From assembly GCA_015501055.1 (NCBI GenBank), contig JADNYV010000085.1, positions 83,046 to 147,045 on the forward strand: a stretch of DNA of 64,000 nucleotides, given 5' to 3'. The translations under genes were made by a program, and so were the position numbers. The notes under the pieces are model-generated. The model saw only the letters and a program-made list of their open reading frames with translations. It was not told the DNA's origin and did no database searches. This stretch comes from Mucidula mucida (taxonomy: Eukaryota; Basidiomycota; Agaricomycetes; Agaricales; Physalacriaceae). Shown piece after piece: positions 11,113-57,175 of the stretch (positions are counted from its first letter, which is position 1; every line of letters begins with the position of its first letter).

Positions 11113-11876
11113 ATGTCCGTATCTCTAGAGAACGTCAACGTCTTACGCGTCCTTACAGAGCCACTCGACGTCCCGATTATGCATTTCAGGACCTTACTGG
11201 TTCGTTCGATTCGTCTTGCCTCATTCTATCACTTACCTCCTAGCTTAGATGGACGCATTGGAGCTCGTATGGGGTCTTAACCGAGGCCACATGAGTTCCT
11301 ACTTTAACGTTCCCGGCGACTTTCTTCAAGGTCTGTCTTCAGTCATCGTGGCGAAACATGAGCGTACTTTCTTTACAGTCCAGCCTGAGCCATCCGTACG
11401 AGGAGCGTCGCGTTGATCCCACCAAACCACATCATCGGCGAACTCTACGAGTTCCAAGAATAAAACGCTAAACTCCCTTTTGCGAAAAGGCGCGCGTTTA
11501 CCGAGGTATGCACATGGGACTATCTCTTATCAGACGTCCTTGAAGGGGTACCATGTGAATGTCGCATCGCTGAAACCAGACATCTCCCTCTACACTCTCA
11601 ACCCACCACCCTAAAAGTGACTACATACAACCTTTCCCTCAGTCGCACATCCCTTCTTCCTCCTCACATACGCGTTAAAGACTGTAAATTTATCCAGTGT
11701 TTCAGTCCTTGGCACTCTACAATTCGGTCGTCCCATTCCCTCCGACGACTCCTCCTGTGCCGCGGTCAGACTCTGAAACTGGGACTGTGGATATTGCAAA
11801 GTGGGTGTCGCGGCGCGTGACGGTCTTGCCCATGTAAATGCTGGAGGCTCGGATCCCCAAACAAAAAGAGGTCTTA
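11113..11876 (+). pseudogene. family A copy A0, decayed
   Basis: Leftmost and most decayed member of the array. Exon 1 (11113-11199, MSVSLENVNVLRVLTEPL...) and exon 2 (11249-11330, WGLNRGHMSSYFNVPGDF) are still readable. Exon 3 has a small deletion and a CAA-to-TAA nonsense change at about 11460. Exon 4 is riddled with indels and has lost the middle of the conserved region between the PWH block and the SDSE block. The 3' end still resembles the KRGLR-type basic tail. It shows that the family is old enough here to have lost members. Confidence 0.75.
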
Positions 11877-12872
11877 GATGTATCTGTGTATTTAGAGATT
11901 AGTCTTATACATTCGTCCGACCTTCTCAGAATGGTCAGCATCACTGTTGTGGATCTCATTCGAACGAGCGACGTTAGTTCTTAGCGTACTTCAAGGAATG
12001 GCTGCCCTAGAGTCATTTTTACTTGAAATAGAACCCCACGACTTAAGTGGAGTACCCAGTCAACGAGTCTTCGTTAGTGATCTGCTGGCTCTTGAGAGTT
12101 TACGACCTAGACTTTAGGTGCCTTCTGAAGTAGTAGTAAGACTTGAGGTACTTGGAGAATCGTAAGTAGTGCTTATTTAAACGATCTCGATGCGCACGGA
12201 TTGCACAAATATCACGTGACAAGATGAGCTCGACGTGGCTGTTAAGGATCTATACTACTTTCGAGACTCGGGATTTCAGTTTACTAGCCTACCTACCCAT
12301 GATTATGACTTACCCACACTATCCTTTTGTTCAACACGCAAGAATCTACGTACACGCGAGATAAGCCTTCGCATCCTCACCCTTTCCCCCACATCCACGA
12401 TCAGACAGCGCGTCACGCTACACATATACTGTCCAAATGCACATTTATTCCATTCCGATCGGCCGCGTATGTTAGAGGAGCCGCGTGCTTCAAATTAAGC
12501 TCCAAAGCTTGTCTATGCCTTGAAGTACTTCGATACAGACTAGACTCGAAGCCTTCCTCTTAGAAACGTCGAACTGCTACTTAGGAACCTCGCTTTTACT
12601 TGGTGGTGTCGTCCCCGCAAGGTATGTCGAAGTGCTATTGCAGTGAGCACCACAGCTAGGATCTATATCAATGTAGAAAGGATTCTTAGGACACGTCGAA
12701 CACAAGTGGTTCGGGTCCTAACTCTCGTAACCCTGTTCGCTATTCCTCCGTATATTGTAAGAAACACTCACAGCCGTGCGAAATAAGGACTCTATTATAC
12801 CACCAAGAAATCACAACACGAGGCTGGTCAGTCATCAGCCTTTAGTACAAAGCTGACGGCTCATTATAATCA
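11877..12872. other. intergenic, no gene recognised
   Basis: No domain seen on either strand. An isolated ATATCACGTGACAAG at about 12208-12222 resembles the promoter element of family A copies but no gene follows it, so it may be a remnant of a lost copy. Confidence 0.4.
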
Positions 12873-13392: not shown

Positions 13393-14653
13393 TCAGCGCC
13401 GAGAGGCCGTCGCAGCGCTCTTGCCCTTCTTGGAACGCTTCGGAGGGGGCGGTACATCGAGTGTAGAATCCGAGTCGTGTGCGGTGGACGCGGCGCGCAG
13501 GCGCTTGGATCGACGAGGTTCGGATGTCGCAGCGTCTTCTTCGGATGTCGAGGCCACGGACTGTATCGCAGCCTCTGCCACAGCCGGTGCAGGTCCCGCA
13601 GCCTTGGAAGTCCCAGAACCTGACCCTGAGGCTACGGGTTTGCCCTCGGGCTGCCAGCTTTCGAAGAGTCGGCTGACTCGGAGCAAGTCGGCCCTTTGCC
13701 ATTTCGGAACGTCGAGAGCGTTCACATCGATGCCTTGGAGCTTAAGGCCAAGATTCCATATCATGTAGACGGGGTTGACATGAAGCTCGATGTTGGAGAG
13801 CAGCGGATGACGAAAAGGTGGAAAAATTCCCTTGAGCCTGGATCTATTGTTCTTACCTGGCAGGTAAACGACGAAGGGATTCTTGCCCTTCCAAGCGATA
13901 TCAACGACGCGGTACTTGAGAGGGTTTTCGGGGTCGTGCTTGAAGAGCTGATAGTAGTCAGAGAGATGGGCAGATGTACATCGTAGACAACACACCTGAG
14001 ATACCGGTCGTTTCCTTCGTGCTTCCGGCGTCTTTTCCGCAAAGTTTACGACGACATCGATAGTCTGAGTTGAGGGGAGAAGGCCGAACAGCCTCTTGTC
14101 CAGCTCCGAATGACACTTGACGCACACTGGTCGTTTTCATCAACAGTACTGTCAGGATGTAGAGAAATAACTTACGGATCATCATGTTAAACCGTGAGTG
14201 TAGATAGAACGTCTTGGGCTCTAACCCCCAGCTGTGTTCTAGGTGCGCTACCTGAGACGACGTCAGTAAGGCTAGCGAAACAAGGATGACGGGCACTCAC
14301 TAGCTCTTCATTTCCCGCTAAAGACCGATCGAGAACATGTGCCATGTTGTAGGAGATGCCATCGTTATTATCGCAGCCGCATATCGCACAAGAGAGACCG
14401 TGTACCGAGTGGTCGATAACAGCCTGTCTAGCTTCGAGCTTCACATCCTCCTTCCACTGGATGTTTCTCCTGGGGCTGATATAGGCGCTACTGCTGGGTT
14501 CGTCGTCTTCTTCGTGGGGCGGCCGGTAGGCGTAGTCGGATCTTTGGGCTTCCGGGACGACTTGAGACGCTGCGGTGTCTCTGGAGGCGGAGACTCCTGC
14601 AGGCTCTTTGTAGGGTGCTCTCGTTGGGAGCGTCGAAGCTGCTGTTCGACCAT
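13393..14653 (-). pseudogene. HNH nuclease-like gene H1, one-base frameshift
   Basis: Exons are 14653-14301, 14251-14176, 14126-13996 and 13947-13393, with introns of 49, 49 and 48 nt. Compared with intact H2, one base is missing near 14540 in exon 1 (GGATC versus GGGATC on the + strand). This throws the frame after RKPKDP, and the HNH part is then only reachable in another frame. The rest is well kept: SCAICGCDN (first Cys pair), NMAHVLDRS (first His), WGLEP..FYLHSRFN (Asn), LCVKCH (second Cys pair and last His), LLPSTQ. A C-terminal domain follows with KYRVVDIAWKG..PFVVYLPGKN and HPLLSNIELHVNPVYMIWNLG, then an NLS-like tail RRSKRLR...PPPPKRSKKGK. The single deletion may be a recent mutation or a sequence error. 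If corrected it would be a complete gene. Confidence 0.7.
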
Positions 14654-15210
14654 AGCGGAGGAGATCTTGGTGATGGCGCCAGCGCCACCCGGGGAATAAA
14701 GAGAGGATGGTGAAGCATGCCATTAGGCAGCGTCTCCATTTATAGCGCGCTGGCATATTCATCGTGAACAAAGCCCGGAAACTCGAGGATAGCCCAACAA
14801 TGGACACCATCTGAGATAAAATCGTAGAAATTCCGGACAATGAGGAGAGTTCTTTGTTCGCTTGGATGCCCAATTAATGGTAGTGACGAGGCATGTGTAG
14901 TCCTATTCGCAGAGAACAATGGAGGAAAATACCAAGGCGGAGCGCCGCCGACAATGTTGTCCACTTTGGGAAGAAACGTGTCCATATTCCATTGTCAGAA
15001 CACACGGCGCATGCTTTGGACGACATATTTTGTCAGCATTGTCTGGAGTAATGTCAGTGGCCGGAGCTAGAAATTCAAAAAGGCAAACCAAGCAACAACA
15101 AATATCACGTGCTGACGCTTTCTTTGTTGGTGACCCTGGCCGCGATCGTCTTTAAACACTACCATCACCATCGTCAATCTCCCACCCAATATCCTCCCTG
15201 TTTGATCACC
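14654..15210. promoter_or_regulatory. divergent promoter region between H1 and A1
   Basis: 557 bases separate the H1 start (leftward) from the A1 start (rightward). On the A1 side CACGTG at 15106-15111 is followed by TGACGC, then about 45 bases later by the CTACCATCACCATCG leader block. Near H1 a TTTATAGCGCGC segment may hold the TATA-like element. The duplicate of this region lies at 22612-23153, so the divergent pair was copied as a unit. Confidence 0.5.
15106..15116 (+). promoter_or_regulatory. CACGTG + TGACG element upstream of A1
   Basis: E-box CACGTG overlapping a TGACG half-site, 105 bases upstream of the A1 ATG. Equivalent elements precede A2 (16464), A4 (18608), A5 (23050), A6 (24398), A8 (26267) and A9 (27614). 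Decayed versions with CACATG or without the E-box precede A3, A7 and A10. CACGTG is the known site of bHLH factors and TGACG of bZIP factors. The regulator here is not known. Confidence 0.5.
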
Positions 15211-16286
15211 ATGACTATCTCCTTGGAAAATGTCAACGTCTCGCGCGCCTTTACTGAGCCACTCGACGTACCGATTATGCATCACAGGAAATTACTGGTC
15301 CGTTGGATTCGTTCTGCCTCGAACTGATGTTTAACTGTGGCTTAGATTGACTCTCTGGAATTTCTATGGGGTCTTGATCGTGGCCAGATGAGCTCTTATT
15401 TCGAGGTCGCCGGGAACTTTCTTCGAGGTCTGTCTTCACTGTTCAGTCATTGTGGCGAAACAGCTTACTTTTCTTACAGTCCAACCCGGCCTCAAAACAG
15501 CTATCGATGCAAAAGATATCGCACTTTTACCCCCTAATCATATTGTCGAGCAATTATTCGAGTTCCAAGAGCAAAATCGTAAACGTCCTCTTGCTCAGAG
15601 GCGAACGTTTACGGAGGTATGTATGCAGTTCCTTGCCCCCCAATCTTTCTGATACAGAGTCTTTCAAGGTATTTTCGTTCATGCCAGGCGAATGTCGCGT
15701 CGTACCGCTGAAGCCCGGCGTCTCTCTCTACACTCTCAACCCTAAGACCCGTAAAGTAACGACTTTAAAGGGTACACGCACATCATTTCCCTCAGTCTCC
15801 TGCGGAGTGCATCCGTTGTTTCTCCTCACATACTCATGCTGGGAGCTCCTCGCTCCTCCACGGCGCATCGACCGCAAACTTGGACTTGGGGACGCGCTTA
15901 TGGACTGTATGGGTCCTTGGCACATGATACCACCCTTTGGGTTTTATGACGGCGCGTACCATGGGCAGTTTGGTCGTTCCGTCCCCTTTGACTATCGTAC
16001 CCTAATTCCGAGGACTCCCCCTGTACCAGACCTCGTCCATTCGTCGTCGTCGTCGTCGTCTTCGTACTCTTCCCTTGGTTCGCGGTTGTCGAAACGGTCC
16101 AGGCTGTCTACGCCATCGCAGTCAGACTCTGAAGCTGGCGTGGATATCGCCAAGTGGGTCTCAGACTGCGCCGTGGGGAACTTCTCCCCTGATGTGGACG
16201 GTCCTGCATTGGACGTTGTTCCATGTAAACCTCTTGATTCGCCGGAGATTAGTGGGCCGCGCATTCCGAAACGAAGGAGATCTTAA
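15211..16286 (+). CDS. family A protein A1 (HNH-derived tandem family, intact)
   Basis: 307 aa. Exons are 15211-15297, 15346-15427, 15480-15616 and 15669-16286, with introns of 48, 52 and 52 nt in phases 0, 1, 0. Exon 1 is MTISLENVNVSRAFTEPL then DVPIMHHRKLL. Exon 2 carries WGLDRGQMSSYFEVAGNFLR. Exon 3 carries LLPPNHIVEQLFEFQEQN and ends FTE. Exon 4 holds the conserved core ECRVVPLKPGVSLYTLNP, FPSVSCGVHPLFLLTYSCW, LGLGDALMDCMGPWH and YHGQFGRSVP. Then come a serine run encoded by (TCG)n, SKRSRLSTPSQSDSEAGVDI and a basic end PKRRRS that could be a nuclear localisation signal. No family name is known to me. Intron positions and motif order match the HNH genes H1/H2, but the Cys pairs and the last HNH His are absent, so nuclease activity is unlikely. 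No signal peptide or membrane segment is evident. Confidence 0.8.
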
Positions 16287-16569
16287 ATCCAAGCAACCCT
16301 TCTACAATCTATACACGTCGCTACATATTTATTATTATCATACATTTCATTGCCTCAAGTTCCAGACCCTAAACTTCGATATTTACTTCTCGCCATTTTG
16401 CCGTAAGACTCTGAGCGATAGTGGCAGACCTTAGTTGGACTTTTTCGCCAAAGGGCAGGCAATCACGTGATGACGCGTTTTTGTTTGACGGCCGCCTGCT
16501 AAGTAGTCCTTCAACCTCTACCATCACTATCTGACATCTCCCACCAAAGATCAGCTACAATATATTTTC

Positions 16570-17618
16570 ATGTCTGTCCCCCTGGAGAACATTAACATCT
16601 CTCGAACCTTTACTGCACCGCTCGTCCTACCGATCATGCATGCAAGGACGGTCTTGGTTCGGTCCAATCATGTTGCTTTTGTGCCAATGCTAAAAGATAA
16701 CTCAGATTGACTGCATGGAATACGTTTGGGGTCTTAACCGCGGCCAAATGAGCGCTTATTTCAACGTCTCCGGCAATTTTCTCCAAAGTCCGTGTCCAAA
16801 ATCGTGCGAATGAAATATGAGCTAATTTTTCCCTAGTTCAACCTGAGCTCAAAGATGCTATCGTCCATGGGAAGGTCGCACTAGTACCCCCCAATCATGT
16901 CGTCCAGGAAATGATCGACTTCCAACAGCAAAATCGTAAACTCCCTTTCGCCAAGAGGCGAATCTTCACCGAGGTATGTACCCATTACCGTACCCACACC
17001 TCTTATTCATATTATCCCCAGGTATTTCCATTCGGGCCAAGCGAATGTCGCGTCCTCCCGCTGAAGCCGGGCGTCTCCCTATACGCTTTAAACCCCACGA
17101 CCCAGAAAGTCACTACTCTGAAAGGCACACTCACATCCTTTCCCTCAGTTTCCTGCGGAGTGATACATCCCTTATTCCTCATGACATACTCGTGCAGGGA
17201 GGTCGTCGTTCCTTCAAAGAGCATAGACAGCAAACTTGGGTTGGGAAATACTCTTATTAAGTGTTTCAATCCTTGGCACACGACTCCGCCCTTGGAGTTC
17301 TACGATGGCGCCTATATGGGACAATTCGGTCGCTCCATTCCTCGCCTCTATCGTCCCTTACTTCCTCCTCCTGTGCTCGTCCATTCTTCGTCGTCATCCT
17401 CTCTCGACTCCGAGCACTCTTCAAAAAGATCCAGGTTATCCACACCGTCACAATCTGACTCTGAAAGTGGCGCAGATATCGCAAAGTGGGCGTCAGACTG
17501 TGCTGCGGCAGACTTCGACCCCGATGTGGGTGGTCCTGCATTGGACGTTGTTCCGTGTAAACCTCTCGACTCGCCGGAGGTTGTTCGACGTCACAATCCG
17601 AAACGCAAGAGGTCTTAG
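16570..17618 (+). CDS. family A protein A2 (intact)
   Basis: 300 aa. Exons are 16570-16656, 16706-16787, 16837-16973 and 17022-17618, with introns of 49, 49 and 48 nt and the same phases as A1. Exon 1 is more divergent than in other copies (MSVPLENINISRTFTAPLVL), and exon 2 ends FNVSGNFLQ. The C-terminal core has MTYSCREVVVPSKSIDSKLG and YMGQFGRSIPRLYRPLLPPP, then a short Ser run, SKRSRLSTPSQSDSESGADI and PKRKRS. The gene lies 283 bases after A1 in the same direction, with its own CACGTGATGACGCG element at 16464-16477. It is nearly identical to A6, 7934 bases to the right, including flanks, which points to a very recent duplication. Function unknown. Confidence 0.8.
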
Positions 17619-17866
17619 AACCAAGTAGTCCTATACGTATCTATTCTTATACATTCATTTCTCGATTTCCAAAACCTAGAGTTTGATCTTCACCTTTCGC
17701 AATCTTTTCGCTTGTTGTAAGGGTATCACTCGATTGTAGCAGACCGCAGCACCAATGATCTCTCCTGATGACGCGTTTTGGTGTTTGTTTGTGCGCTACC
17801 TAGTTCTTTAACCTCTACCATCACTATTCAAAATCTCCCATCCAATATCGTCTCTGTCAGATCGCC

Positions 17867-18460
17867 ATGTCTGTGTCTCTGGAGAACGTCAACGACTCGC
17901 GCGCCTTTACTGAGCCACTGGACGTACCGATTATGCATTCAAGGGTCATATTGGTTCGTTTGAATCGTGTAGCTGTAGTGCTGATACCAAAGCATGGCTT
18001 AGATTGACCCCTTCGAATTTGTATAGGGACGCGGCCAAATGAGCTCCTATGTTGACGTTCCCGGCAACTTTCTGGGAGGTCTGTCTCCAATAATCCGCCA
18101 ACACATGAGCTTAGTTTCCTACAGTCCAACCCGAAATCAAGGAAGCCATGCGTGCAAAAAAGGTCGTTTTGATCCCTCCAAACCACGTAGTCAAGGAACT
18201 GCTCGAATTCCAGACCAAAATCTTGAACTGCCTTCTACCAAGAGGCGCATTTTCACCGAAGTGAGTCTGCAATGCCGCACCCACGACGTATCTGTCCGGT
18301 TTAGTCTCGTTCAGATATTCTTGTTCAATCCGTGCGAATGTCGTGTCGTACCGTTGAAGTCGGGTGTCTCCCTCTACGCTCTCAATCCCACCACCCGGAA
18401 AGTAACTCTCTTAAAGGGCACACGCGCTGCTAAGTGCATCCTCTCTTTCTCCTTACATAC
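17867..18460 (+). pseudogene. family A copy A3, truncated
   Basis: Exon 1 is complete (17867-17953, MSVSLENVNDSRAFTEPL). Exon 2 has a nonsense change plus deletion where other copies code WGLNRG (GTATAG at about 18022). Exon 3 is readable to the splice donor. Exon 4 stops being homologous about 110 bases in (after TLLKGTRA), where the sequence jumps directly into the 3' flank that normally follows the gene. The conserved HPLF..PWH core, serine run and basic tail are all deleted. The deletion endpoint joins flank sequence like that after A8, suggesting unequal recombination between array members. Confidence 0.8.
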
Positions 18461-18709
18461 GCCTGTCATATTTATTATTATACATCTCATTGCCTCGAAT
18501 TCCAGAACCTAGAACTCGAAATTCACCTTTAGACCTTGTGCCGGAACATTCTTTGCGCGATGGTGGTAGATACGAAGGAATTGTATCGCCCAAGCCAGCG
18601 CAGCCATCACGTGACGACGCGTTTTGGTTGTGCTCCGCATGCGATCGTTTTTAAACTCTACCATCACCATCGTCAGTCTCCCACCTAACATCCTCCCCGT
18701 TTAATCACT

Positions 18710-19780
18710 ATGTCCATATCTTTGGAGAACGTCAATGTCTCGCGCGCCTTTACTCAGCCACTCGACGTACCGATTATGCATTCCAGGACTTTATCGGTTC
18801 GTTCGATTCCTCCTGCCTCAATCTATAACTGACCTCTTATATTAGATTGACGCATTGGAATTTGTTTGGGGTCTTAACCGAGGCGACATGAGCTCTTACT
18901 TCAACGTTCCCGGCAACTTTCTTCGAGGTCTGTCTTGAGTCATCGTGGCGAAACATAGAGCTTACTTTTTTTTCACAGTCCAGCCTGAGCTCAAAGAAGC
19001 GATCCTTACGAGGAACGTTGCATTAGTACCGCCAAACCACATCATCGACGAACTGTATGAGTTTCAAGAACAAAACGCTAAACTCCCTTTTGCGAAAAGG
19101 CGCGCGTTTACCGAGGTATGTACATGGCACTGTACCCGAATATATTTCTAATCATCCAATCCCTGAAGGTGTCCTCACTCAAGCCATGTGAATGTCGTGT
19201 TGTACCGCTGAAGCCAGGCGTCTCCCTCTACACTCTCAACCCCACCACCCGGAAAGTGACTCCTTTCAGAGGCACACGCACATCATATCCCTCAGTCTCC
19301 TGCAGCGCGCATCCCTTTTTCGTCATAACATACGCGTGCTACGCGCTCGTCAATCCTTTAAAGACGGTGAGGCGCAAACTTGCGCTAGGGCTACCGCTTA
19401 TTCAGTGTATCGGTCCTTGGCACATGGCCCCACCCTTCGAGTTCTATAGGGGCGCATATATCGGACAATTTGGTCGTCGCATTCCCTACAAATATCGTCC
19501 TTTACTTCCGGCGAGTCCTCCTGTGCCGGAGCTCGTCCATTCATCATCATCATCGTCAAGCTCCTCTCTGGATTCGCGCTCCTCAAAACGGTCCAGGTTG
19601 TCCACACCGTCGCAATCAGACTCTGAAGCTGGCGTAGATATCGCCAAGTGGGTGTCGCACTGCGCCACGGAGGTCTTCGACCCCGATGTGGCCGGTCCTG
19701 CATTGCAAGTTGTTCCTTGTAGACCTCTTGACTCGCCGGAGGTTGTTGGACGTCGGATCCCGAAACGCAAGAGGACATAG
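18710..19780 (+). CDS. family A protein A4 (intact)
   Basis: 305 aa. Exons are 18710-18796, 18846-18927, 18979-19115 and 19169-19780, with introns of 49, 51 and 53 nt. Exon 3 reads QPELKEAILTRNVALVPPNH, then EFQEQNAKLPFAKRRAFTE. The core has CECRVVPLKPGVSLYTLNP, SCSAHPFFVITYACYALV and LALGLPLIQCIGPWHMAPP, followed by the Ser run, SKRSRLSTPSQSDSEAGVDI and PKRKRT. A CACGTGACGACGCG element lies at 18608-18621. The gene, its 3' flank and about 700 further bases are almost identical to A9 (offset 9005). It forms a subclade with A9 and A10 (HPFFV.TYACYALVNP) distinct from A1/A5/A8 and A2/A6. Confidence 0.8.
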
Positions 19781-20579
19781 ATCCTAGTATATACACGGCG
19801 CTACGTATTTATTGTTATACACTTCATTCCTCGAGGCTCGATTAGAGGTAGGATGTTCGCTCGTCATAATCTTCGCATCTAATCCGCGGTCGTTGATGAG
19901 TAAGGTTGTATGCCTGCTTGTTCGTCGGGTGACAACCCGACTGGGCCTCTTAGCGACATCGTTCTGCTGGTGCTGCCAAGCCATGGTGTTCACACCCTCC
20001 CAAACGTCATAAGACAGAGCGTGTTCGGTGAAAGCTCACTGGGTGTCTATGAAAGGTGCTTAGGCTTCGTGGCCCTGGCAGCTGTAATCCTGTTTCGTGG
20101 CTGTTCAATAACATCATCACTTTCATTACCGTTTTCACAACCATAAGTCGATCTAAGTGAACCCTCAGTGGCATAGCAGACATAGTAAACGTTACTCGGT
20201 CGTCAAAAATGATAGTGGCTATACGGGCTCGTTAGAACTTTCTGACCAGATCTGCGGATAATCAAGTCTAGGTTGTTGATCTGGCTTTGTGAGGCGATGC
20301 TTTGGGTGCGTGCACCGGAACAAGAAAGCATGTAAAAACACACTATGGATCTGAATCGTCTCTGAACACATAAGGGCGACTTGCCAAAATGATGAAGTGT
20401 GCGTTTTTGGGGCAGTGCCATGTGGCGCAACTGAGTCCAATCAACAAAGGCAGAACGGACGTCATGAAATACACGATATTGGTCCAATAGAATTGGTGGG
20501 AATGCACACTGTACTAGATTACGTCGGTGGATCATGAAAGATTACTTGGTGGTTTCCTCTGACTACTCATTTAAGTGAG
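19781..20579. repeat. right end of duplicated block 1 (non-coding)
   Basis: 3' flank of A4 followed by about 700 bases almost identical to 28786-29526. It includes a small perfect hairpin (GTCGGGTGACAACCCGAC at about 19926). Short antisense frames here are not conserved in frame between the two copies, so I do not call a gene. Confidence 0.6.
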
Positions 20580-21328
20580 TTAAATGAGCCTTGAGAGATA
20601 TAGCCAACTGTAGACCTATGCAGATGTAGGCGACGCGGACGCGGAGGTGCACCGATACTTCTACACCGGTTCTCACCTGTTGGATTATCAAGTGCACCGG
20701 TGCACTCGCTACCGGCGGCACCAACGCCACCGACTCGCGTCTACCCTCTCCATATGTTCATGCTGTCCATTGATCTACTTATAGTGTACTCTACTGTGTA
20801 TAAGCTTCTTGTATGGAAGGTACAATCCAGTTTCTAATTTGCCGGGTTTCCCGTACCTTCACAGTCCCGCCAACTCCCATGCATCGACGCGTCGCTCACG
20901 ATTTTTCACCCGCGACTCAACCAATCTTACACGTTTTCAGAACAGTGGCGGTATCACTGGTTCCCGCCACATGGCGCAAAATAGATCCCGTCCCCCCACT
21001 CAGAGCCGACCGTGGGTCACGGCTGATCCCCTTTGGCTGATTGGAAGATGGCAAGGTCGGAAAGTCAGGCCAAGCCGGTGACTTCAGGCTAGCACATCAT
21101 TGAATAGACGATGCCTTACGTCCAAGGTGCCCAGATTTTTAAATAAATACACATTATCTGATTTTTTTGGTATCTAAATACATTTTTCGGTTGTATTTAC
21201 ATCGTGAACAAGAAACATAAAAGGGGAGAAACGTAATGTCATAGAGAGGATTTCAACCAGAGTGCGATGCTAAATTGTGCAGAGAAACGTGAGATCATAA
21301 AGAGGAATAGCATGAGAGTGGAATGGAG
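20580..21328. repeat. left end of duplicated block 2 (non-coding)
   Basis: Counterpart of 12873-13392 with about 220 extra bases around 20690-20920. The junction with block 1 lies near 20540-20580. It carries the 3' flank of H2. Confidence 0.6.
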
Positions 21329-22611
21329 TCAGCGCCGAGAGGCCGTCGCAGCGCTCTTGCCCTTCCTGGAACGCTTCGGAGGGGGCGGTACATCAAGTGT
21401 AGAATCCGAGTCGTGTGCGGTGGACGCGGCGCGCAGGCGCTTGGATCGACGAGGTTCGGATGTCGCAGCGTCTTGCTCCGATGTCGAGGTCTCGGACTGT
21501 ACAGCTGCTCGTTCAGAAATCGCCGCATCTGCCCCGGACGGTGCAGGTCCTGCCGCCTTGGACGTCGTAAAACCCGATGTGGCTCGGTCGTCGTCGTCCT
21601 GGAGGACCCAAGACTCGAAAAGCCGTCGCACATTTGCCAAGTCGGTCCCCTGCGACAGAGGAACGTCGAGATCCTCCAAATCGTGATTTTCAAGCTTGAC
21701 GCCAAGGTTCCACATCATGTAGACGGGATTTACATGAAGCTCGATGTTGGACAGGAGCGGATGATGGAAAGGCGGGAAAATACCCTTGATCCTGGATCTG
21801 TTGTTCTTGCCGGGCAGATAAACGACGAAGGGATTACTGCCCGTCCAACCAATATCGATAAGGCGATACTTGAGAGGGTTGTCGGGGTCGTGTTTGAAAA
21901 GCTGCTAGTAGTCAGAGAGATGAGCAGATATACATGGAAGCCAACGTACCTCGGAGACTGGGTTCTTGCTTCGTTCTTCCGGCGTCTTATTCACAAATTC
22001 CAAAGCGACCTCAATAGCTTGGGTCGGGGGGAGGAGGGCGAACAGCCCCGTGTCTAGCCCCAGATGACATTTGACACAAACTACTCGTTCGTTCAGTAAG
22101 AATATTGTTGGGATATCGGGAAAGGTATTCACGAATCATCATGTTGAACCGTGAATGTAGATAGAACGTCTCGGGCTCTAATCCCCAGCTTTCTTCTAGA
22201 TGCGCTACCTGGGCAGTCGTAAGTAAGCCTAGCGAAACAACGATGACTGGCACTCACTAGCTCTTCATTTCCCGCTAAAGACCGATCGACAACATGTGCC
22301 ATGTTGAAGGTACTTCCATCATTATTATCGCAGCCGCATATCGCACAAGAGAGACCGTGTACCGAGTGGTCGATAGCAGCCTGCCTAGCTTCGAGCTTCA
22401 CATCCTCCTTCCACTGGATGTTTCTCTTGGGGCTAATATAGGCGCTAATGCTGGGTTCGTCGTCTTCTTCCTGTGGGGGCCGGTAGGCGTAGTCGGGATC
22501 TTTGGGCTTCCGGGACGATTTGAGAGGCTGCGGTGTCTCTGGAGGCGGAGACTCCTGTAGGCTCTTTGTAGGGTGCTCTCGTTGGGAGCGTCGAAGCTGC
22601 TGTTCGGCCAT
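21329..22611 (-). CDS. HNH nuclease-like protein H2 (intact)
   Basis: 377 aa. Exons are 22611-22258, 22208-22133, 22080-21950 and 21901-21329, with introns of 49, 52 and 48 nt in phases 0, 1, 0. The N-terminal 70 residues are basic and Pro-rich (RRSQREHPTKSLQE, KSSRKPKDP). The HNH region runs from about residue 95 to 165: LSCAICGCDN, FNMAHVVDRSLAGNEEL, LEESWGLEP, YLHSRFNMMI, LCVKCHLGLDTGLFALLPP. I read His in AHV, Asn in SRFN and His in KCH as the HNH triad, and CxxC...CxxC as a structural zinc site. The C-terminal domain has KYRLIDIGWTG, PFVVYLPGKNN and HPLLSNIELHVNPVYMMWNLG. The tail has acidic stretches and NLS-like RRSKRLR and PPPPKRSRKGK. This resembles the large basidiomycete family with RFN..H..LP HNH motifs. 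Likely nuclear. Substrate and role unknown. Confidence 0.78.
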
Positions 22612-23153
22612 TAGAGAGGAGATTTGGGAGATAGCGCCAGCGCCACCGGGGGAATAAAGAGAGGATAGTGGGGCATGTCGTTAGGCAGCGTCTCCGTTTA
22701 TAGTGCACTGGCAGGAACAAAGCCCGGGAACTCGAGGAAAGCCCAACAATGGACACTATCTGAGATAAACCCGTAGAAGTACCGGACAATGAGGAGAGTT
22801 CTTTGTTCGCTTGGATGCCCTACGGTTGTGAATGTGTAGTCCTAGTCGCACAGAACAATGGAGGCCAGTACCAAGGCGGAGCGCTGCCGTCAATGTTGTC
22901 CACTTTGGGAAGCAACGTGTTCATATTCCATTGTCAGAACACATGGCGCATGCTGTGGACAACGCATTGCCTCAGCATTGTCTGGAATAATGGCAGTGGC
23001 CGGAGCTAAAAATCCAAAAAATGAAATCTCGCCAAGCAACAACAAATATCACGTGTTGACGACTTCTTTGTTGGTGGCCCGGGCCGCGATCATCTTTGAA
23101 CTCTACCATCACCATCGTCAGTCTCCCACCCAATATCCTCCCTGTTCGTCACC
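22612..23153. promoter_or_regulatory. divergent promoter region between H2 and A5
   Basis: Counterpart of 14654-15210. CACGTG at 23050-23055 precedes TTGACG, and the CTCTACCATCACCATCG leader block lies about 50 bases before the A5 ATG. Conserved spacing to both genes suggests shared control of the divergent pair. Confidence 0.5.
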
Positions 23154-24220
23154 ATGTCTATCTCCTTGGAAAATGTCAACGTCTCGCGCGCCTTTACTGA
23201 GCCCCTCGACGTACCGATTATGCATACCAGGACCTTACTGGTCCGTTCGATTCGTTCTGCCTCAAACTAATTTGTTAACTCTGGCTTAGATTGACTCTAT
23301 GGAATTCGTGTGGGGTCTTAATCGGGGTGACATGAGCTCATACTTCGACGTCGCCGGGAACTTTCTTCGAGGTCTGTCTTCTTTCATCGTGGGCGTAAAA
23401 TGCACTGACTTTTCTTACAGTCCAACCCGGCCTCAAAGCAGCTATCGATGCAAAAGACGTAGCACTGATACCCCCAAATCACATTGTTGAGGAACTGCTC
23501 GAGTTCCAACGGCAAAATCGTAAACTCCCTCTCGCCAAGAGACGAATCTTTACCGAGGTATGTACCCAGTGCCATACCCACGGCTCTTATTCATATTCTC
23601 CTTAGATCTTCTCCTTCGATCCAAGCGAATGTCGCGTCGTCCCGCTAAAGCCGGGCGTCTCCCTATACACTCTCAACCCCAAGACCCGTAAGGTCACCGT
23701 TTTAAGGGGTACACGCACATCATTTCCCTCCGTCTCCTGCGGAGTGCATCCTTTGTTTCTTCTTACATATGCATGCTGGGGGCTCCTCAACCCTCCTCGA
23801 AGCATTGACCGCAAACTTGGGCTCGGGAATACACTTTTCAAGTGTGTGAGTCCTTGGCACAGGATACCACCCTTCGAGTTCTACGAGGGCGCCTATAAGG
23901 GTCAGTTCGGTCGTTCTATTCCGTTCGGATATCGTCCATTACTTCCGACGACTCCTCCTGTGCCCGACCTCGTCCATTCGTCGTCGTCGTCGTCTTCATC
24001 ATCTTCTCCGGATTCGCGGTCGTCCAAACGGTCCAGGTTGTCTACGCCATCACAGTCAGACTCTGAAGCTGGCGTGGATATCGCCAAGTGGGTGTCGGAC
24101 TGCGCCGTGGGGAACTTCTCCCCTGATGTGGACGGTCCTGCATTGGACGTTGTTCCATGTAAACCTCTTGATTCGCCGGAGATTAGTGGGCCGCGCATTC
24201 CGAAACGAAGGAGATCTTAA
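23154..24220 (+). CDS. family A protein A5 (intact)
   Basis: 306 aa. Exons are 23154-23240, 23290-23371, 23421-23557 and 23606-24220, with introns of 49, 49 and 48 nt. Block 2 counterpart of A1. Exon 2 reads MEFVWGLNRGDMSSYFDV, and exon 3 reads DAKDVALIPPNHIVEELLEF. The core has SECRVVPLKPGVSLYTLNP and HPLFLLTYACWGLLNPPRS, then YKGQFGRSIPFGYRPLLP. From about codon 235 onward (DNA 24110 on), and through the downstream flank, it is identical to A1, while upstream it differs at many positions. This mosaic pattern points to gene conversion or a recombination breakpoint inside exon 4. The basic end is PKRRRS as in A1. Confidence 0.8.
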
Positions 24221-24503: not shown

Positions 24504-25567
24504 ATGTCTGTCCCCCTGGAGAACATTAACATCTCTCGAACCTTTACTGCACCGCTCGTCCTACCGATCATGCATGCAAGGACGGTCTTGGTTCGGTCCA
24601 ATCATGTTGCTTTTGTGCCAATGCTAAAAGATAACTCAGATTGACTGCATGGAATACGTTTGGGGTCTTAACCGCGGCCAAATGAGCGCTTATTTCAACG
24701 TCTCCGGCAATTTTCTCCAAAGTCCGTGTCCAAAATCGTGCGAATGAAATATGAGCTAATTTTTCCCTAGTTCAACCTGAGCTCAAAGATGCTATCGTCC
24801 ATGGGAAGGTCGCACTAGTACCCCCCAATCATGTCGTCCAGGAAATGATCGACTTCCAACAGCAAAATCGTAAACTCCCTTTCGCCAAGAGGCGAATCTT
24901 CACCGAGGTATGTACCCATTACCGTACCCACACCTCTTATTCATATTATCCCCAGGTATTTCCATTCGGGCCAAGCGAATGTCGCGTCCTCCCGCTGAAG
25001 CCGGGCGTCTCCCTATACGCTTTAAACCCCACGACCCAGAAAGTCACTACTCTGAAAGGCACACTCACATCCTTTCCCTCAGTTTCTTGCGGAGTGATAC
25101 ATCCCTTATTCCTCATGACATACTCGTGCAGGGAGGTCCTCGTTCCTTCAAAGAGCATAGACATCAAACTTGGGTTGGGAAATACTCTTATTAAGTGTTT
25201 CAATCCTTGGCACACGACTCCGCCCTTGGAGTTCTACGATGGCGCCTATATGGGACAATTCGGTCGATCTATTCCTCGCCTCTATCGTCCATTACTTCCT
25301 CCTCCTGTGCTCGTCTATTCTTCGTCGTCATCAACGACATCGTCATCCTCTCTCGACTCCGAGCACTCTTCAAAAAGATCCAGGTTATCCACACTGTCAC
25401 AATCTGACTCTGAGAGTGGCGTAGATATCGCAAAGTGGGCGTCAGACTGTGCTGCGGCAGACTTCGACCCCGATGTGGGTGGTCCTGCATTGGACGTTGT
25501 TCCATGTAAACCTCTCGGCTCGCCGGAGGTTGTTAGATGTCGCAATCCGAAACGCAAGAGGTCTTAG
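24504..25567 (+). CDS. family A protein A6 (intact)
   Basis: 305 aa. Exons are 24504-24590, 24640-24721, 24771-24907 and 24956-25567. Near-identical duplicate of A2 at a constant offset of 7934 bases. The introns are identical in position and almost in sequence. Differences are few: VVVP to VLVP, a longer Ser/Thr run in the tail (an inserted block of TCATCAACGACATCG type) that makes it 5 aa longer, and LDSPE to LGSPE. It has its own CACGTGATGACGCG element at 24398-24411. The length change in the serine tract is typical of replication slippage. Confidence 0.8.
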
Positions 25568-25849: not shown

Positions 25850-26125
25850 CCCATCCTTGGAGGACGTTAGCATCTCGCCCGCTACCAGACCTCGTCCATT
25901 CGTCATCTTCTCTTGATTCGCGGTCGTCGAAACGGTGTAAGCTGTCTATGCCATCGCAGTCAGACTCTGAAGCTGGCGTGGATATCGCCAAGTGGGTGTC
26001 GGACTGTACCACGTAGATCCTCGACCCCGACGTGGCCGGTGCCGCATTTGAAAGTTGTTCCTCGTAAGCCTCTTGACTCGCTAGAGGTTAGTAGGATGAT
26101 GTCGCATTTCGAAACGAAAGAGATC
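25850..26125 (+). pseudogene. family A copy A7, internal-deletion relic
   Basis: Begins with leader and exon-1-like sequence (LEDVSISPA, cf. LENVNVSRA), then jumps directly to the C-terminal part (PDLVHSSSS, SKRCKLSMPSQSDSEAGVDI). About 900 bases of the gene are deleted. The tail also has a stop (ACG TAG after DCT). The upstream element is degraded to CACATGATGGCGCG near 25760. It is consistent with unequal crossing-over inside the array. Confidence 0.7.
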
Positions 26126-26367: not shown

Positions 26368-27432
26368 ATGTCTATCTCCTTGGAAAATGTCAACGTCTCG
26401 CGCGCCTTTACTGAGCCCCTCGAGGTACCGATTATGCATTCCAGGACCTTACTGGTCCGTTCGATTCGTTCTGCCTCAATCTGATTATTAACTCTGGCTT
26501 AGATTGACTCTATGGAATTCGTATGGGGTCTTAATCGGGGTGACATGAGCTCATACTTCGACGTCGCCGGAAACTTTCTTCGAGGTCTGTCTTCTTTCAT
26601 CGTGGGCGTAACATGAACTGACTTGTTCTTACAGTCCAACCCGGCCTCAAAGCAGCTATCGATGCAAAAGACGTGGCACTGATACCCCCAAATCACATTG
26701 TTGAGGAACTACTCGAGTTTCAGCGGCAAAATCGTAAACTCCCTCTCGCCAAGAGACGAATCTTCACCGAGGTATGTACCCATTACCGTACACACACCTC
26801 TTATTCATATTATCCCCAGGTATTCCCATTCGGACCAAGCCAATGTCGTGTCGTCCCGCTGAAGCCGGGAGTCTCCCTATACGCTTTAAACCCCACGACC
26901 CAGAAAGTCACTACTCTGAAAGGCACACGCACATCATTTCCCTCCGTCTCCTGTGGGGTGCATCCTTTGTTTCTCCTCACACATGCCTGCTGGGAGCTCC
27001 TCAACCCTCCTCGAAGCATCGACCGCAAACTTGGGCTCGGGAATACACTCTTCAAGTGTGTGAGTCCATGGCACAGGATACCACCCTTCGAGTTCTACGA
27101 GGGCGCCGAATAAGGGCCAGTTCGGTCGTTCTATTCCCTACAAATATCGTCCATTAATTCCGACGACTCCTCCTGTGCCCGATCTCGTCCATTCGTCGTC
27201 GTCGTCTTCATCCTCTTCTCTGGACTCGCGGTCGTCCAAACGGTCCAGGTTGTCTACGCCATCGCAGTCAGACTCTGAAGCTGGCGTGGATATCGCCAAG
27301 TGGGTGTCAGACTGCACCGTGGTGGACTTCGATTCCGATGTGGGCGGTCCTGCATTGGACGTCGTTCCATGTAAACCTCTCGACTCACCGGAGGTTCTTA
27401 TACGTCGTAATACTAAACGCAAGCGGTCTTAG
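26368..27432 (+). pseudogene. family A copy A8, single frameshift
   Basis: Exons are 26368-26454, 26503-26584, 26635-26771 and 26820-27432. All splice sites are intact, and the first three exons are nearly identical to A5. Within exon 4, at about 27107-27113, one extra base converts the GAYKGQ codons into GAE-stop. The remaining 105 codons, including QFGRS, the Ser run, SKRSRLSTPSQSDSEAGVDI and the basic KRKRS end, continue intact in the next frame. The rest of the gene is clean, so the lesion is recent or a sequencing artefact. The 5' half of exon 4 resembles A2/A6 and the 3' half A5/A9, again a mosaic. Confidence 0.75.
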
Positions 27433-27714: not shown

Positions 27715-28785
27715 ATGGCCACATCTTTGGAGAACGTCAATGTCTCGCGCGCCTTTACTGAGCCACTGGACGTACCGATTATGCATTCCAGGACTTTATC
27801 GGTTCGTTCGATTCCTCCTGCCTCAATCTATAACTGACCTCTTATATTAGATTGACGCATTGGAATTTGTGTGGGGTCTCAATCGAGGCGACATGAGCTT
27901 ATACTTCAACGTTCCCGGCAACTTTCTTCGAGGTCTGTCTTGAGTCATCGTGGCGAAACATAGAGCTTACTTTTTTTTCACAGTCCAGCCTGAGCTTAAA
28001 GAAGCGATCCTTACGAGGAACGTTGCATTAGTACCGCCAAACCACATCATCGACGAACTGTATGAGTTTCAAGAACAAAACGCTAAACTCCCTTTTGCGA
28101 AAAGGCGAGCCTTTATTGAGGTATGTGCATGGCACTGTACCCGAATATATTTCTAATCATCCAATCCCTGAAGGTGTCCTCATTCAAGCCATGTGAATGT
28201 CGTGTTGTACCGCTGAAGCCAGGCGTCTCCCTCTACACTCTCAACCCCACCACCCGGAAAGTGACTCCTTTCAGAGGCACACGCACATCATATCCCTCAG
28301 TCTCCTGCAGCGCGCATCCCTTTTTCGTCATAACATACGCGTGCTACGCGCTCGTCAATCCTTTAAAGACGGTGAGGCGCAAACTTGCGCTAGGGCTACC
28401 GCTTATTCAGTGTATCGGTCCTTGGCACATGGCCCCACCCTTCGAGTTCTATAGGGGCGCATATATCGGACAATTTGGTCGTCGCATTCCCTACAAATAT
28501 CGTCCTTTACTTCCGGCGAGTCCTCCTGTGCCGGAGCTCGTCCATTCATCATCATCATCGTCAAGCTCCTCTCTGGATTCGCGCTCCTCAAAACGGTCCA
28601 GGTTGTCCACACCGTCGCAATCAGACTCTGAAGCTGGCGTAGATATCGCCAAGTGGGTGTCGCACTGCGCCACGGAGGTCTTCGACCCCGATGTGGCCGG
28701 TCCTGCATTGCAAGTTGTTCCTTGTAAACCTCTTGACTCGCCGGAGGTTGTTGGACGTCGGATCCCGAAACGCAAGAGGACATAG
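27715..28785 (+). CDS. family A protein A9 (intact)
   Basis: 305 aa. Exons are 27715-27801, 27851-27932, 27984-28120 and 28174-28785. Near-identical duplicate of A4 (constant offset 9005) over exons, introns and 3' flank. Differences include MATS for MSIS at the start, MSLYF for MSSYF in exon 2, AFIE for AFTE at the end of exon 3, and CKPL for CRPL near the C-terminus. CACGTGACGACGTG at 27614-27627 is the matching promoter element. Confidence 0.8.
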
Positions 28786-31452: not shown

Positions 31453-33218
31453 ATGTCCGTGTCTTTGGAACACGTTAACGTCTCGCGCACCTTTACTGAG
31501 CCACTGGATGTCCCGATCATGCATTCCAGAACGCTATTGGTTCGTTTTATCTATCGTCTTCTAATCTAACGCTGATCACACGGTTAGGTCGATGCCTTGG
31601 AATTCGTATGGGGACTCAACCGAGGCGATATGAGCTCTTATTTCGACGTTCCCGGCAACTTTCTTCGAGGTCTGTCTTCAGTCGCTGTGGCGAAGCATGA
31701 GCTGAACTTCCCACAGTCCAACCCGAACTCAAAGAAGCTATCGATGCAGAAGATGTCGCCCTGGTACCCCCAATCACATTGTTGAGGAACTAGTCGAGTT
31801 TCAAGAGCAAAATCGTAAACTCCCTCTTGCTCAGAGGCGCGCGTTTACCGAGGTATGTACAAGGCACTGTATCCCAATATTTCTGATCATCGAATGTTTC
31901 AAGGTGTCTTCATTCAAGCCATGTGAATGTCGTGTCGTACCGCTGAAGCCAGGCGTCTCCCTCTACAGTCTAAACCCCACCACCCGGAAAGTGACTCCTT
32001 TCAGAGGCACGCGTACATCATTTCCCTCAGTCTCCTGCAGCGCACATCCTTTTTTTGTCCTCACATACGCGTGCTACGCGCTCGTCAATCCTTCAAAGAC
32101 GGTCAGGCGCAAACTTGCGCTAGGACAACTCCTTATTCAGTGTTTCGGTCCTTGACACATGGCCCCACCCTTCGAGTTCTACGAGGGCGCTTATATCGGA
32201 CAGTTTGGTCGTTCCGTTCCCTACAAGTATCGCCCCCTCCTTCCGAAGGGTCCTGGTGTGGCGAAGGACCACGTCTATTCGTCGTCGTCATCTTCCTCAC
32301 AGAATGCATCTGTTGTGGATGAAATTGTATCTTGTGCGGTTTGTGGCTTCCACTCTAGCCGAGCTTTCAATTGCTACACCATCGCACATGTTATGGAACG
32401 GTTGCTAGCTGGAAACCAAGAAAAGGTGAGTGCGTCGTTGCTCATTCTCGAATACGATAACTGACCAGATGCAGCTGGAACGAAGCTGGGGCTTGGAGCC
32501 TGGGACGTTCTTTCTTGGCTCTCGTGCCAACACCATGATCCGTAAATCTTTCCCCTACACGTGGTAGTTTTGATACTGAAACCCATCTCGAGTAGTATGT
32601 CCCAGTTGCTATACTGTGATGGACAAGAAAATCGTTGGCCTCCTTCCTCCAACGCATGTCATCGATTTTGCCTCAAAGGCGGCGGAAGAACGAAAGAGCA
32701 GCCCTTTGTCTTCGGTCAGTTGCCTTCAACTTCTCCAAACATATATCTCTCTGACTATCTAATCAAGCCTGAAGCTCTCAAGTACCGTCTCATCGACATC
32801 GACTGGAGAGGAACAATCCCTTCGTCGTTTTCCTAAACGACAAGAACAGCAAACGCCACATTCTCGGAATCGATCCGCCCTTTGATCATCCCTTCTCTCA
32901 GCATCGAGCTGGTGTTAATCCCGTGCACATGGTATGGATACTTGGGCTCCAGCTTAAAGACGTCGATGTGGAGACTCTTGATGTTCCAGCTGGGTATGGG
33001 ATGATTTGCGCGAGTGCGTCAACTCTGTCGGGCTGGGAGGAGCCGGTGATCGCGTCAGGAAGTGAGGAAGAGACTGTACAGCCGTGACACCATCAGGCGC
33101 TACGGTATCGGAACCTCGACGAGAGAAGCGCTTGCGCGGTGCTTCTATGGGAAGCGGTAGCGCCAACGATATATCCCCACCTTCGAAGCGTTCCAAGCAT
33201 GGGAAAACTAAGCGCTAA
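31453..33218 (+). pseudogene. chimera of family A copy A10 and HNH copy H3, broken
   Basis: The 5' part is a family A gene: exon 1 31453-31539, exon 2 31588-31669, exon 3 from 31717, exon 4 from about 31904. It has a one-base deletion in exon 3 (PPNH codons become PPITLL then stop) and TGG-to-TGA in GPWH at about 32154. After the Ser run, where other copies have SKRSRL, it continues into an HNH gene on the same strand: VSCAVCG, YTIAHVMERLLAGNQEK, intron, LERSWGLEPGTFFLGSRANTM, intron, MDKKIVGLLPPTH, intron, LKYRLIDIDWRG...NPVHMVWILGLQL, and PPSKRSKHGKTKR ending at 33218. The HNH half has lost the His in HSRFN (GSRAN) and the second Cys pair, and carries frameshifts. Fusion was probably created by recombination between the two related families. 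Confidence 0.75.
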
Positions 33219-45129: not shown

Positions 45130-45173
45130 ATTCATTATACAATTTCAGTCCAGATCACACATAATTAGGTAAA

Positions 45174-46028
45174 ATGCCATTAGCAAAAAAAAGGACAAAG
45201 GCCATGAAGGCCATACAAAATGTTGTGCTACAAACAAACCTGATGCGAGTACTGGACGCCACGGATGACGATGGAATCGATTACTGGGTTTCGAAGTCCG
45301 CACCGCACAATGCGGAGTTTATCACCCCACAACAAGCCCTTGCCCGGATGGCTCTCGACTTCTTGAGCTGTCCCGCCACTAGTACTGATGTCGAACGACT
45401 CTTCTCGCACAGTGGTCTTGTCGTCTCCAAACGACGACACAATCTCGCTGCGGACTCAATTCGAGAGACCACGATACTTGGACAGTGGCTTGCCATTGAG
45501 GATCTTGTCCCCGAGCAGAAGATTGCGAAGTTCTTGCACAATCGGAAGTTACGGAAGAAGGATTTGAATGAGGACCTCTCGACCGACTGGACGGATTCGG
45601 ATGCAGACGCAGACGGAGGTGACGATTCCTCGGAGGATGCTGCACCGATGGATGTTTCCGATTCAGAGGTGGAGGTTGTCGAGGAGGTTGTCGAGGAGGA
45701 TGAGGTTGTCGAGGAGGACGAGGTGGTTGACGAGGATGAGGTGGTTGACGAGGATGGGGATGATGTTGAGGAGAACTTGTGGACCAAGAGGAAGGGGAAG
45801 GGCAAGGCTGTTGCACAGTCGGAGGAGATGGACTTTTCTGATTTCCGCGATGGTATGGATCCTGTCTCAGAGTTTGACACGGGTCATGATGGTGATGTTG
45901 AGATTGACGATGATGACGATGATCTCTATGAAACGATTGAGCAGGTAGTTTTGGTTCGACGGCGCAAGCCTGCTTCTTCACCTCAGGATACTACTGATAT
46001 GGATGCTACTGATATGGATATAACTTGA
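45174..46028 (+). CDS. hAT transposase C-terminal fragment (dimerisation domain)
   Basis: 284-aa ORF. Residues 40-105 carry the hAT C-terminal dimerisation motif: QQALARMALDFLSCPATSTD, VERLFSHSGLVVSKRRHNLA, then ILGQWL. The rest is an acidic tail with tandem EDEVV/DEDEVV repeats encoded by GAGGATGAGGTTGTC-like DNA, a basic patch WTKRKGKGKA and an Asp run. The BED zinc finger and RNase H-like catalytic core of full hAT transposases (usually 600-800 aa) are missing. An N-terminal exon could have been lost when the element was truncated. It cannot catalyse transposition alone. Confidence 0.75.
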   Translation: MPLAKKRTKAMKAIQNVVLQTNLMRVLDATDDDGIDYWVSKSAPHNAEFITPQQALARMALDFLSCPATSTDVERLFSHSGLVVSKRRHNLAADSIRETTILGQWLAIEDLVPEQKIAKFLHNRKLRKKDLNEDLSTDWTDSDADADGGDDSSEDAAPMDVSDSEVEVVEEVVEEDEVVEEDEVVDEDEVVDEDGDDVEENLWTKRKGKGKAVAQSEEMDFSDFRDGMDPVSEFDTGHDGDVEIDDDDDDLYETIEQVVLVRRRKPASSPQDTTDMDATDMDIT

Positions 46029-46235: not shown

Positions 46236-47301
46236 TCATACGATGAGTCCGAATATACTCGAGTATGGACTCGTGTCCATCTCTAACTCAATAGTGCATC
46301 CATCGAACTTGACGGTTTCCACGATTTGCAACGCCTCTTGTTCAGAGTTGGCGTATACAAGGGATAACACGTCGTCGATAAAGCGCCCGTAGAATAAGAA
46401 TCTCGGGTCGCCCATGACGTTCAACTTCCTCTCGAAGTACCAACCAAATAAGTTGGCTAAGTCCGGTGAGTCCGCTACGCCCATTGCGAGGCCGCGGAGT
46501 TGTTCGAAGTATTCGTCATCGAATTGAAACACTAAGTTTTTGTTACCGACTTCTAAGGCCTTAATGAAGAGCCACTCTTCCCGAAGACTTTCTTCGGAAC
46601 GTTCGTTCAACGCAATATCGTTAGTATACCATTCTTTATACAACTCGACGACGATGTCGAGGCAGAGTTGTAATGGTACGTTCGGATAGAACGCGACGAC
46701 GTCACCAGTGCATATATACCACTGGCGACCTTGAGTCGGTTTAACTTTGCTTAATTTTAGCGCCAAATCTTTGGATCCATGGAGGATGGTTGGCGCCGAT
46801 TTTACAATCGGTTTAAGTCTTTTGCTGACATACTTGGCGGCGGGGTTCTGGATGGCGCTATGACATGGAAGTATAGGGCGCATCTTCACGGGTTCCTTAT
46901 GTATTTTAGGAATACCGTAGAATTGCGGAAGCGTAGGCTTTTGTCCGACTGGGGTAGTCTTACTCCGGAAGAAGGGGCCAAGTTGTTTCCCGTTACGATG
47001 GTGCTGTTCAGCGGTTTCAGCGAGCAATTCCATCTGTGTATTATGCCAGTTACACTGCGCGACTACATGTATATACATTATTTTACGATAATCATCAGTA
47101 TTATCGAGGAGCGCGCGTGTTCGTTCGTTAACCCAGGTGCGTTTAGACACCGCTATCCCTAAGTTCTTATCAGTACTGGTGACGATGTAGTCATTCTCAG
47201 TTAAGAACTCATGAATCTGGCGAGGGCTCGGAGTAAACGCTTTATGGGCGTCCGAGGCCGTCTCAACGGGTATATTAGATATCGTTCGGTGAACGAAGGT
47301 C
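46236..47301 (-). pseudogene. PLE ORF, reverse transcriptase part (upstream of hAT insertion)
   Basis: Contains all core RT motifs, including both catalytic Asp sites (DVVAFYPN and FIDDV). The frame enters without a start from the telomeric junction (VHRTISNIPVETASDAHKAF is still in frame), so the true N-terminus is missing. It runs into hAT sequence after FDGCTIEL. Confidence 0.8.
46286..46293. other. right target-site duplication of the hAT insertion
   Basis: ACTCAATA, identical to 44784-44791. Confidence 0.85.
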
Positions 47302-47335
47302 GTAGGGTTAGGGTTAGGGGGGGTTAGGGTTAGGG
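47302..47335 (+). repeat. interstitial TTAGGG tract at start of subtelomeric unit 1
   Basis: Four TTAGGG repeats interrupted by a G run. It marks the 5' truncation point of the PLE and the start of a long subtelomeric unit. Confidence 0.85.
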
Positions 47336-54100: not shown

Positions 54101-54107
54101 ATATCTC

Positions 54108-57060: not shown

Positions 57061-57175
57061 TACCCCTACTTCAGTTGCTAGGACGCAAAACAAAAAAAAC
57101 ATACAGGTATTTTGTAAGAGAGGAAGTTGTATGTACACCTAAGGGGATGTACTGTACGAGATATCAGACCATATC

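Follow-up and report, generated by a model that had tools for sequence, protein, structure and literature searches.

HNH-family genes and predicted nuclease-dead paralogues paired head to head in Mucidula mucida, a candidate nuclease and inhibitor module

As reported, the Spok proteins of Podospora and Fusarium carry two functions in a single chain, killing through a nuclease-like domain and resistance through a kinase domain, and antidote-only copies occur as well (PMC12693581); in the multi-copy wtf driver family of Schizosaccharomyces pombe, complete genes gave rise to antidote-only members (PMC12941216), AdoMetDC and prozyme pair an active enzyme with a dead paralogue (PMC5201418), and bacterial type II toxin-antitoxin systems are two-gene modules in which an antitoxin protein binds the toxin. 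Here we analyze a locus that resembles each of these systems in part, a 64,000-nucleotide stretch (hereafter the window) on contig C882 of the 59.9-Mb assembly of the mushroom-forming fungus Mucidula mucida. The window carries three genes of an HNH family (H1, H2, and H3) together with 11 copies of a second family, family A, which appears to be a catalytically dead relative of the first and stands head to head with it across the genome.

With Spok, the locus would share a fungal nuclease-like killer, a resistance function and antidote-only copies, as far as the available text describes these; unlike Spok, which is one protein whose kinase is needed for resistance, it consists of two genes, the partner being a presumed dead relative of the nuclease, and it is known from its genes alone. 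The parallel with wtf lies in a multi-copy family with antidote-only members, whereas in wtf a single locus encodes both poison and antidote, neither of them a nuclease. Prozyme activates its partner, the enzyme in question is not a nuclease, and head-to-head gene pairing is no part of that pair's definition. In contrast to bacterial type II modules, the present one is eukaryotic and divergently transcribed, and its presumed antidote is homologous to its presumed toxin. Neither Spok nor wtf is a nuclease placed head to head with its own dead paralogue, and we know of no homology between wtf and the H or A proteins. No description of a conserved divergent enzyme/pseudoenzyme nuclease pair was found in the literature searched, which covered few subscription papers, and the word basidiomycete does not occur in the available portion of a review of meiotic drive (PMC12941216).

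At two places in the window, an HNH gene and a family A gene diverge from a short common stretch:

13393..14653, minus strand: H1, HNH-family gene that, read from the homologous start, has a frameshift in exon 1 relative to H2 (gene model; the public model P0009 uses another start and has 407 aa, with 26.2 bits to Pfam HNH_2)
14654..15210, unstranded: 557 bp from the H1 start codon (minus) to the A1 start codon (plus), a presumed shared promoter (delimited by the start codons)
15211..16286, plus strand: A1, predicted nuclease-dead paralogue of 307 aa, divergent partner of H1 (gene model; identical to P0001)
21329..22611, minus strand: H2, open HNH-family gene of 378 aa with four exons (354, 76, and 131 nt and a last exon of 576 nt including the stop) and intron phases 0, 1, 0 (gene model; P0008; 24.1 bits to Pfam HNH_2, cut-off 21)
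22612..23153, unstranded: 542 bp from the H2 start codon (minus) to the A5 start codon (plus), likewise a presumed shared promoter (delimited by the start codons)
23154..24220, plus strand: A5, predicted nuclease-dead paralogue of 306 aa, divergent partner of H2 (gene model)

An initial annotation of this DNA had proposed that family A represents nuclease-dead HNH paralogues, and comparison of sequence profiles supports the kinship with the HNH family on which that reading depends. A first set of profiles from three lineages (19 A and 6 HNH sequences) gave a probability of 95.1 with the tails included and 92.7 (P 4.2e-7) for the cores, whose score of 52.5 compares with a best of 24.5 in 498 shuffles. 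In this set, masking WGL and PP left a score of 31.8 (best of 498 shuffles, 24.9) at a probability of just 25%; the match of exon 4 by itself was weak (P 0.0078), and A exon 1 by itself found no match. Once a fourth lineage had been added (16 A and 8 HNH sequences), hhalign returned a P of 1.4e-8 and a score of 62.1 (best of 300 column shuffles, 21.5), with a match that is collinear over exons 2 to 4. The similarity extends beyond the WGL and PP residues, since the masked score was 41.0 (P 2.8e-5; best of 300 shuffles, 21.3); exon 4 by itself scored 31.0 (P 5.1e-5; at most 19.4 in 300 shuffles), and a deliberately non-collinear control, A exons 2 and 3 against HNH exon 4, gave a P of 0.58.

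The gene models bear out nearly all of the architectural parallels noted initially. H2 and family A have three introns in common, in phases 0, 1, and 0; exons 1 to 3 measure 87, 82, and 137 nt in A1, A2, A4, A5, A6, A8, and A9 and 354, 76, and 131 nt in H2, so that the internal exons differ as described (76 versus 82 and 131 versus 137 nt). WGL occupies residues 8-10 of exon 2 in both families, and PP residues 18-19 of exon 3, the split codon being counted as residue 1. The suggested common HP core holds in part: HP is present in A (HPLFLL), but its counterpart in the HNH protein is the NP of HVNPVYMM rather than the HHP. Taken together, the collinear profile match and the common intron positions support homology of A to the HNH family.

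The residues expected of a nuclease active site separate the two families. When 16 A and 8 HNH sequences are aligned together, all eight HNH sequences have the motif's His, Asn, and His at aligned positions, as had been claimed for these genes. The first His occurs in none of the 16 A sequences; its position falls within exon 1, which is short in A and aligned with less certainty. The Asn, which is structural in HNH folds, was thought to be possibly kept in A and is indeed present in every sequence of both families. The last His is missing from all 16 A sequences, which have K, R, Q, N, I, M or alternatives free of H in its place; in A5 it is Lys, the replacement of the KCH His pointed out at the outset. 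The cysteines of CAIC and VKC are without counterpart in A, again as described.

The HNH genes lie at the edge of the Pfam family HNH_2 (PF13391), and the A proteins lie outside it. Three of the six HNH proteins scanned pass the cut-off of 21 (H2, 24.1 bits; H1 as P0009, 26.2 bits; the gene on C838, 21.4 bits), and these resemble HNH_2 nucleases also in their H-N-H residues. No match was obtained for any of five full-length A proteins (A5, A2, P0005, and those of the C926 and C138/C405 types) or for two partial ones (P0013 and P0014), which differ from such nucleases in lacking both His as well. Scanning the genome for HNH_2 gave 16 places, eight of them above the cut-off. Three of these other HNH_2 genes, on C271, C671, and C584, showed no alignment to the H or A queries over the HNH part and were not counted; C271 alone reached the alignment threshold, with a score of 57 to the H2 tail.

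Predicted structures were compared as well. Confidence is high for much of residues 1-20 and 51-180 in the A1 model, whose elements follow one another as strand 18-21, helices 30-37 and 41-48, strand 54-57, helix 59-66, strand 70-73, and helix 76-91. For H2 the model is poor, with a mean predicted local distance difference test score (pLDDT) of 52.3, and runs through strand 103-109, helices 116-125 and 135-138, strand 140-145, and helices 146-149 and 163-173. At aligned places, the order of elements agrees in the two models except for A1 strand 70-73, a comparison of order alone that includes the poor H2 model. In a PDB search, neither the A1 nor the H2 model matched an HNH structure, and because the HNH model itself failed to do so, this search is uninformative on the relation of A to HNH.

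HNH and A genes are tightly linked and kept together in the M. mucida genome. We searched the whole genome with H and A proteins and modelled the genes by spliced alignment; as such searches give the best candidates, the locus counts are lower bounds. At least 23 HNH loci were counted: seven of the window type (three on C882, three on C211, and one on C838), four of the C71 type (C71, two on C971, and C349), five of the C926 type (two on C926, and C956, C154, and C570), six of the C405 type (four on C405, and C866 and C138), and one on C438. Weak matches on C616, C249, and C254 (E 0.17-3.1) were left out, and C937 and C388 are weak A-like places. A divergent A gene accompanies 20 of the 23 HNH loci, its start codon about 290-560 bp from that of the HNH gene, in five lineages within this one genome. 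The start codons are 542 bp apart at H2/A5, 557 at H1/A1, 423 on C838, 390 on C71, 378 on C971, 374 on C956, and 296 and 308 on C405; distances on C211, C866, and at the fourth C405 pair were taken from search coordinates, and the values for C926, C154, C971 (25 kb), and C438 are approximations, the HNH start or gene there being incomplete or only modelled in part. All 11 HNH genes modelled as open have a divergent A gene (H2, three on C211, C838, C71, C971, C956, and three on C405).

The three exceptions are a short fragment on C349, the C570 locus at a contig end, and the broken H3, the sole HNH gene of the window not head to head with an A gene, which has the broken A10 upstream on the same strand (31453-33212). 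Many of the loci are haplotype or tandem copies, and the independent evidence therefore amounts to five lineages rather than 20 events. Not all of the paired HNH genes are whole: those at C926 (two), C154, and C971 (25 kb) and window H1 are broken, truncated or fragmentary, and in the search result a stop interrupts the exon-4 match of the C138 gene. The fifth lineage is very divergent: at C438:16000-18000, A-like exons on the plus strand lie beside an HNH-like gene on the minus strand, with start codons about 292 bp apart, weak matches (scores 61-73), and genes that run beyond the fetched stretch.

One part of the initial proposal, the derivation of family A from the neighbouring HNH genes, is not supported. 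In profile comparisons, C405-type A matches other A sequences with a probability of 99.4% and C405-type HNH matches other HNH sequences with 97.0%, and the C405 lineage alone gives a P of only 0.04 between A and HNH; the split between A and HNH is thus older than the local cluster. Since the deep lineages of each family group with their own family in profiles and trees, a local origin of A from H1 or H2 is rejected, and the recurrence of the pairing in five lineages likewise argues that A was not made from its neighbours. The joint tree supports the A/HNH split at 100, but it joins the two halves at places other than those seen when each family is treated separately, and does so at weak support (75 and 77), which leaves the root unsettled. 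The C71 and C926/C956 types fall together in each of the two separate trees (support 100 in A and 94 in HNH), other branches being weaker. Hymenopellis radicata has A proteins of the window type (P0005 and P0006) and of the C926 type (P0014 and P0015), so that these types predate its split from M. mucida.

Between paralogues, both partners are under purifying selection. The ratio of nonsynonymous to synonymous substitution rates (dN/dS) is 0.15-0.34 for A cores (15 comparisons of the six open window copies) and 0.25 for HNH cores (H2 versus the open H1-type gene on C211), and on C405 it is 0.49 for HNH and 0.25 for A. The dS of 0.43 for that HNH core pair is similar to the 0.54 for the cores of A1 and A5, and from this similarity the paralogous pairs seem to have been duplicated together.

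The kept head-to-head pairing favors a possible regulatory or decoy role of A. We propose, at a probability of about 50%, an ancient two-gene module whose dead half, A, binds the nuclease H and restrains it. H would be an HNH-type nuclease, with A transcribed away from it out of the shared stretch of about 290-560 bp. A keeps the framework of the HNH region (the Asn and the collinear helices and strands) and has lost both catalytic His. H presumably cuts DNA in the nucleus, as might be expected from the basic C-terminal tails of both proteins (in several lineages the A copies terminate in basic stretches, PKRKR for example). A would bind H as a heterodimer through the shared fold and hold it inactive, the module would act like a nuclease with its inhibitor or antidote, and extra A copies could be spare or specialised inhibitors.

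The C-terminal tails of 9 of the 16 A proteins tested also contain a motif, [DN]IxxW[VAL]xxC (in A5 near residues 260-270). It is present in the window type, P0005, C838, C926, and C71 and absent from the C693, C273, and C405 types, and the A1 model places a helix at the site (262-271) within its low-confidence tail. The motif is a possible partner-binding peptide.

A bolder version, which we put forward tentatively, holds that the pair is an ancient eukaryotic toxin-antidote system expanded in this mushroom: a nuclear HNH nuclease would be neutralised by its own dead head-to-head paralogue, and unpaired A genes might confer immunity to partner or rival nuclei, whether within the dikaryon or among spores. 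The selfish element of this claim has as its whole basis the asymmetry between A and HNH genes and the differences in copy number. If true, the locus would provide a nuclease/inhibitor module of two proteins in which the enzyme gave rise to its own inhibitor, and a testable candidate for genetic conflict (drive or nuclear competition) in mushroom-forming fungi. The pairs recurring in diverged lineages are natural matched and mismatched pairs for the evolution of inhibitor specificity.

Against the homology of A and HNH stands the C405 lineage, which alone shows no significant match between the two families, with P values across lineages of 0.086 and 0.25, in C405-only alignments of low diversity and information (template effective number of sequences, Neff, 1.2). 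Several points weigh against an inhibitory role of A, which might just as well activate or aim H. The HNH genes of C71/C971, C956, and C405 (scanned as P0011, C956, and C405) gave no HNH_2 match. Homologue searches found A in Hymenopellis radicata and no HNH partner for it there or in any other species. In near-allelic comparisons with few changes, dN/dS ranges from 0.32 to 1.69, three values lying at 0.91-1.69, and HNH tails have values of 0.69-0.77. Finally, a weak HNH-like stretch (score 66) lies downstream of, and convergent with, one of the A genes on C273 that are otherwise unpaired.

The main rival to inhibition makes A indispensable to H, as an obligate subunit that would activate, stabilise or aim it; an H-A heterodimer would then be the working enzyme, with DNA binding or allosteric activation coming from A. 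Pairing and homology fit such a heteromeric enzyme equally well, and dead paralogues that activate an active partner exist, as the available part of the AdoMetDC/prozyme source describes (PMC5201418). An obligate one-to-one subunit sits poorly, however, with the excess of A over HNH in the window (11 to 3, broken ones included) and with A genes that have no divergent HNH neighbor: C693, C273 (two), and C99 (two) have none in the upstream 1.2 kb, the A gene at C405:229888 has none in the upstream 2.1 kb, and the HNH searches list nothing on C693, C273, and C99 among the best candidates. Broken HNH genes beside open A genes, at C926 (45 kb) and C154, also speak against it, and we consider such an obligate, activating role less likely than restraint. 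Even if A activates H, the conserved divergent enzyme/pseudoenzyme nuclease pair would stand in five lineages as an arrangement undescribed in the literature searched.

Less probable still is that the H-A pair forms the coding part of a mobile element, a nuclease with a DNA-binding protein, that has spread in the genome. Such an origin would suit the multiple copies on many contigs and the transposon-like genes nearby (hAT dimerisation domain, 45165-46028). Around the two window units, however, there are no clear terminal inverted repeats, the best inverted pairs (16-22 nt, 77-82%) lying inside or between genes, and the copies occur in tandem clusters (C405, the window, and C211), which fits segmental duplication.

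That A is unrelated to the HNH proteins, its likeness due to chance or convergence, is very improbable given a several-lineage match far above all 300 shuffles, masked and for exon 4 alone likewise, and three introns that agree in place and phase; the missing PDB match is uninformative here and the C405-only alignments little informative. Least credible of all, decaying and functionless HNH pseudogenes would account for the four broken and one truncated of 11 window copies and for the lost HNH residues, but hardly for six open copies with core dN/dS of 0.15-0.34, two A types in Hymenopellis radicata, and an Asn and splice sites conserved over deep lineages.

Of the family A copies in the window, six are open (A1, A2, A4, A5, A6, and A9; 300-307 aa), one is truncated (A8), and four are broken or fragmentary (A0, A3, A7, and A10). 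Those outside the two units above, with H3, are as follows:

11113..11880, plus strand: A0, broken copy, end approximate
16570..17618, plus strand: A2, open, 300 aa (gene model; identical to P0003)
17867..18512, plus strand: A3, broken copy, end approximate
18710..19780, plus strand: A4, open, 305 aa (gene model; identical to P0002)
24504..25567, plus strand: A6, open, 305 aa (gene model)
25850..26125, plus strand: A7, fragment, bounds approximate
26368..27113, plus strand: A8, early stop in exon 4, 199 aa (gene model; P0004)
27715..28785, plus strand: A9, open, 305 aa (gene model)
31453..32290, plus strand: A10, broken copy, end approximate
32291..33212, plus strand: H3, broken HNH-family gene directly after A10, bounds approximate (search match C882:115517-116257)

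The public annotation has the same proteins for A1, A2, A4, and A8 (P0001-P0004), and its H2 is one residue shorter (P0008). A very similar cluster lies on contig C211, which is probably the other haplotype, but with a different HNH copy number: two identical open H2-like genes and an open H1-type gene are found there, whereas C882 has one open H2, the frameshifted H1, and the broken H3. The C211 counterpart of H1 reads open where exon 1 of the window gene is frameshifted.

Rfam gave no match in the window. The open frame at 45165-46028 encodes the hAT transposase dimerisation domain (Pfam PF05699, 2.5e-07). A second open frame, at 46236-47390 on the minus strand, had no Pfam match at E 0.001; we presume from its appearance by eye (motif FIDDV), unconfirmed by Pfam, that it resembles a reverse transcriptase. 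From 47384 to 64000, a long minisatellite with units of about 261 and 136 bp and a strong G-over-C skew reaches the contig end, and stretches identical over 300 bp recur within it 9585 and 9875 bp apart.

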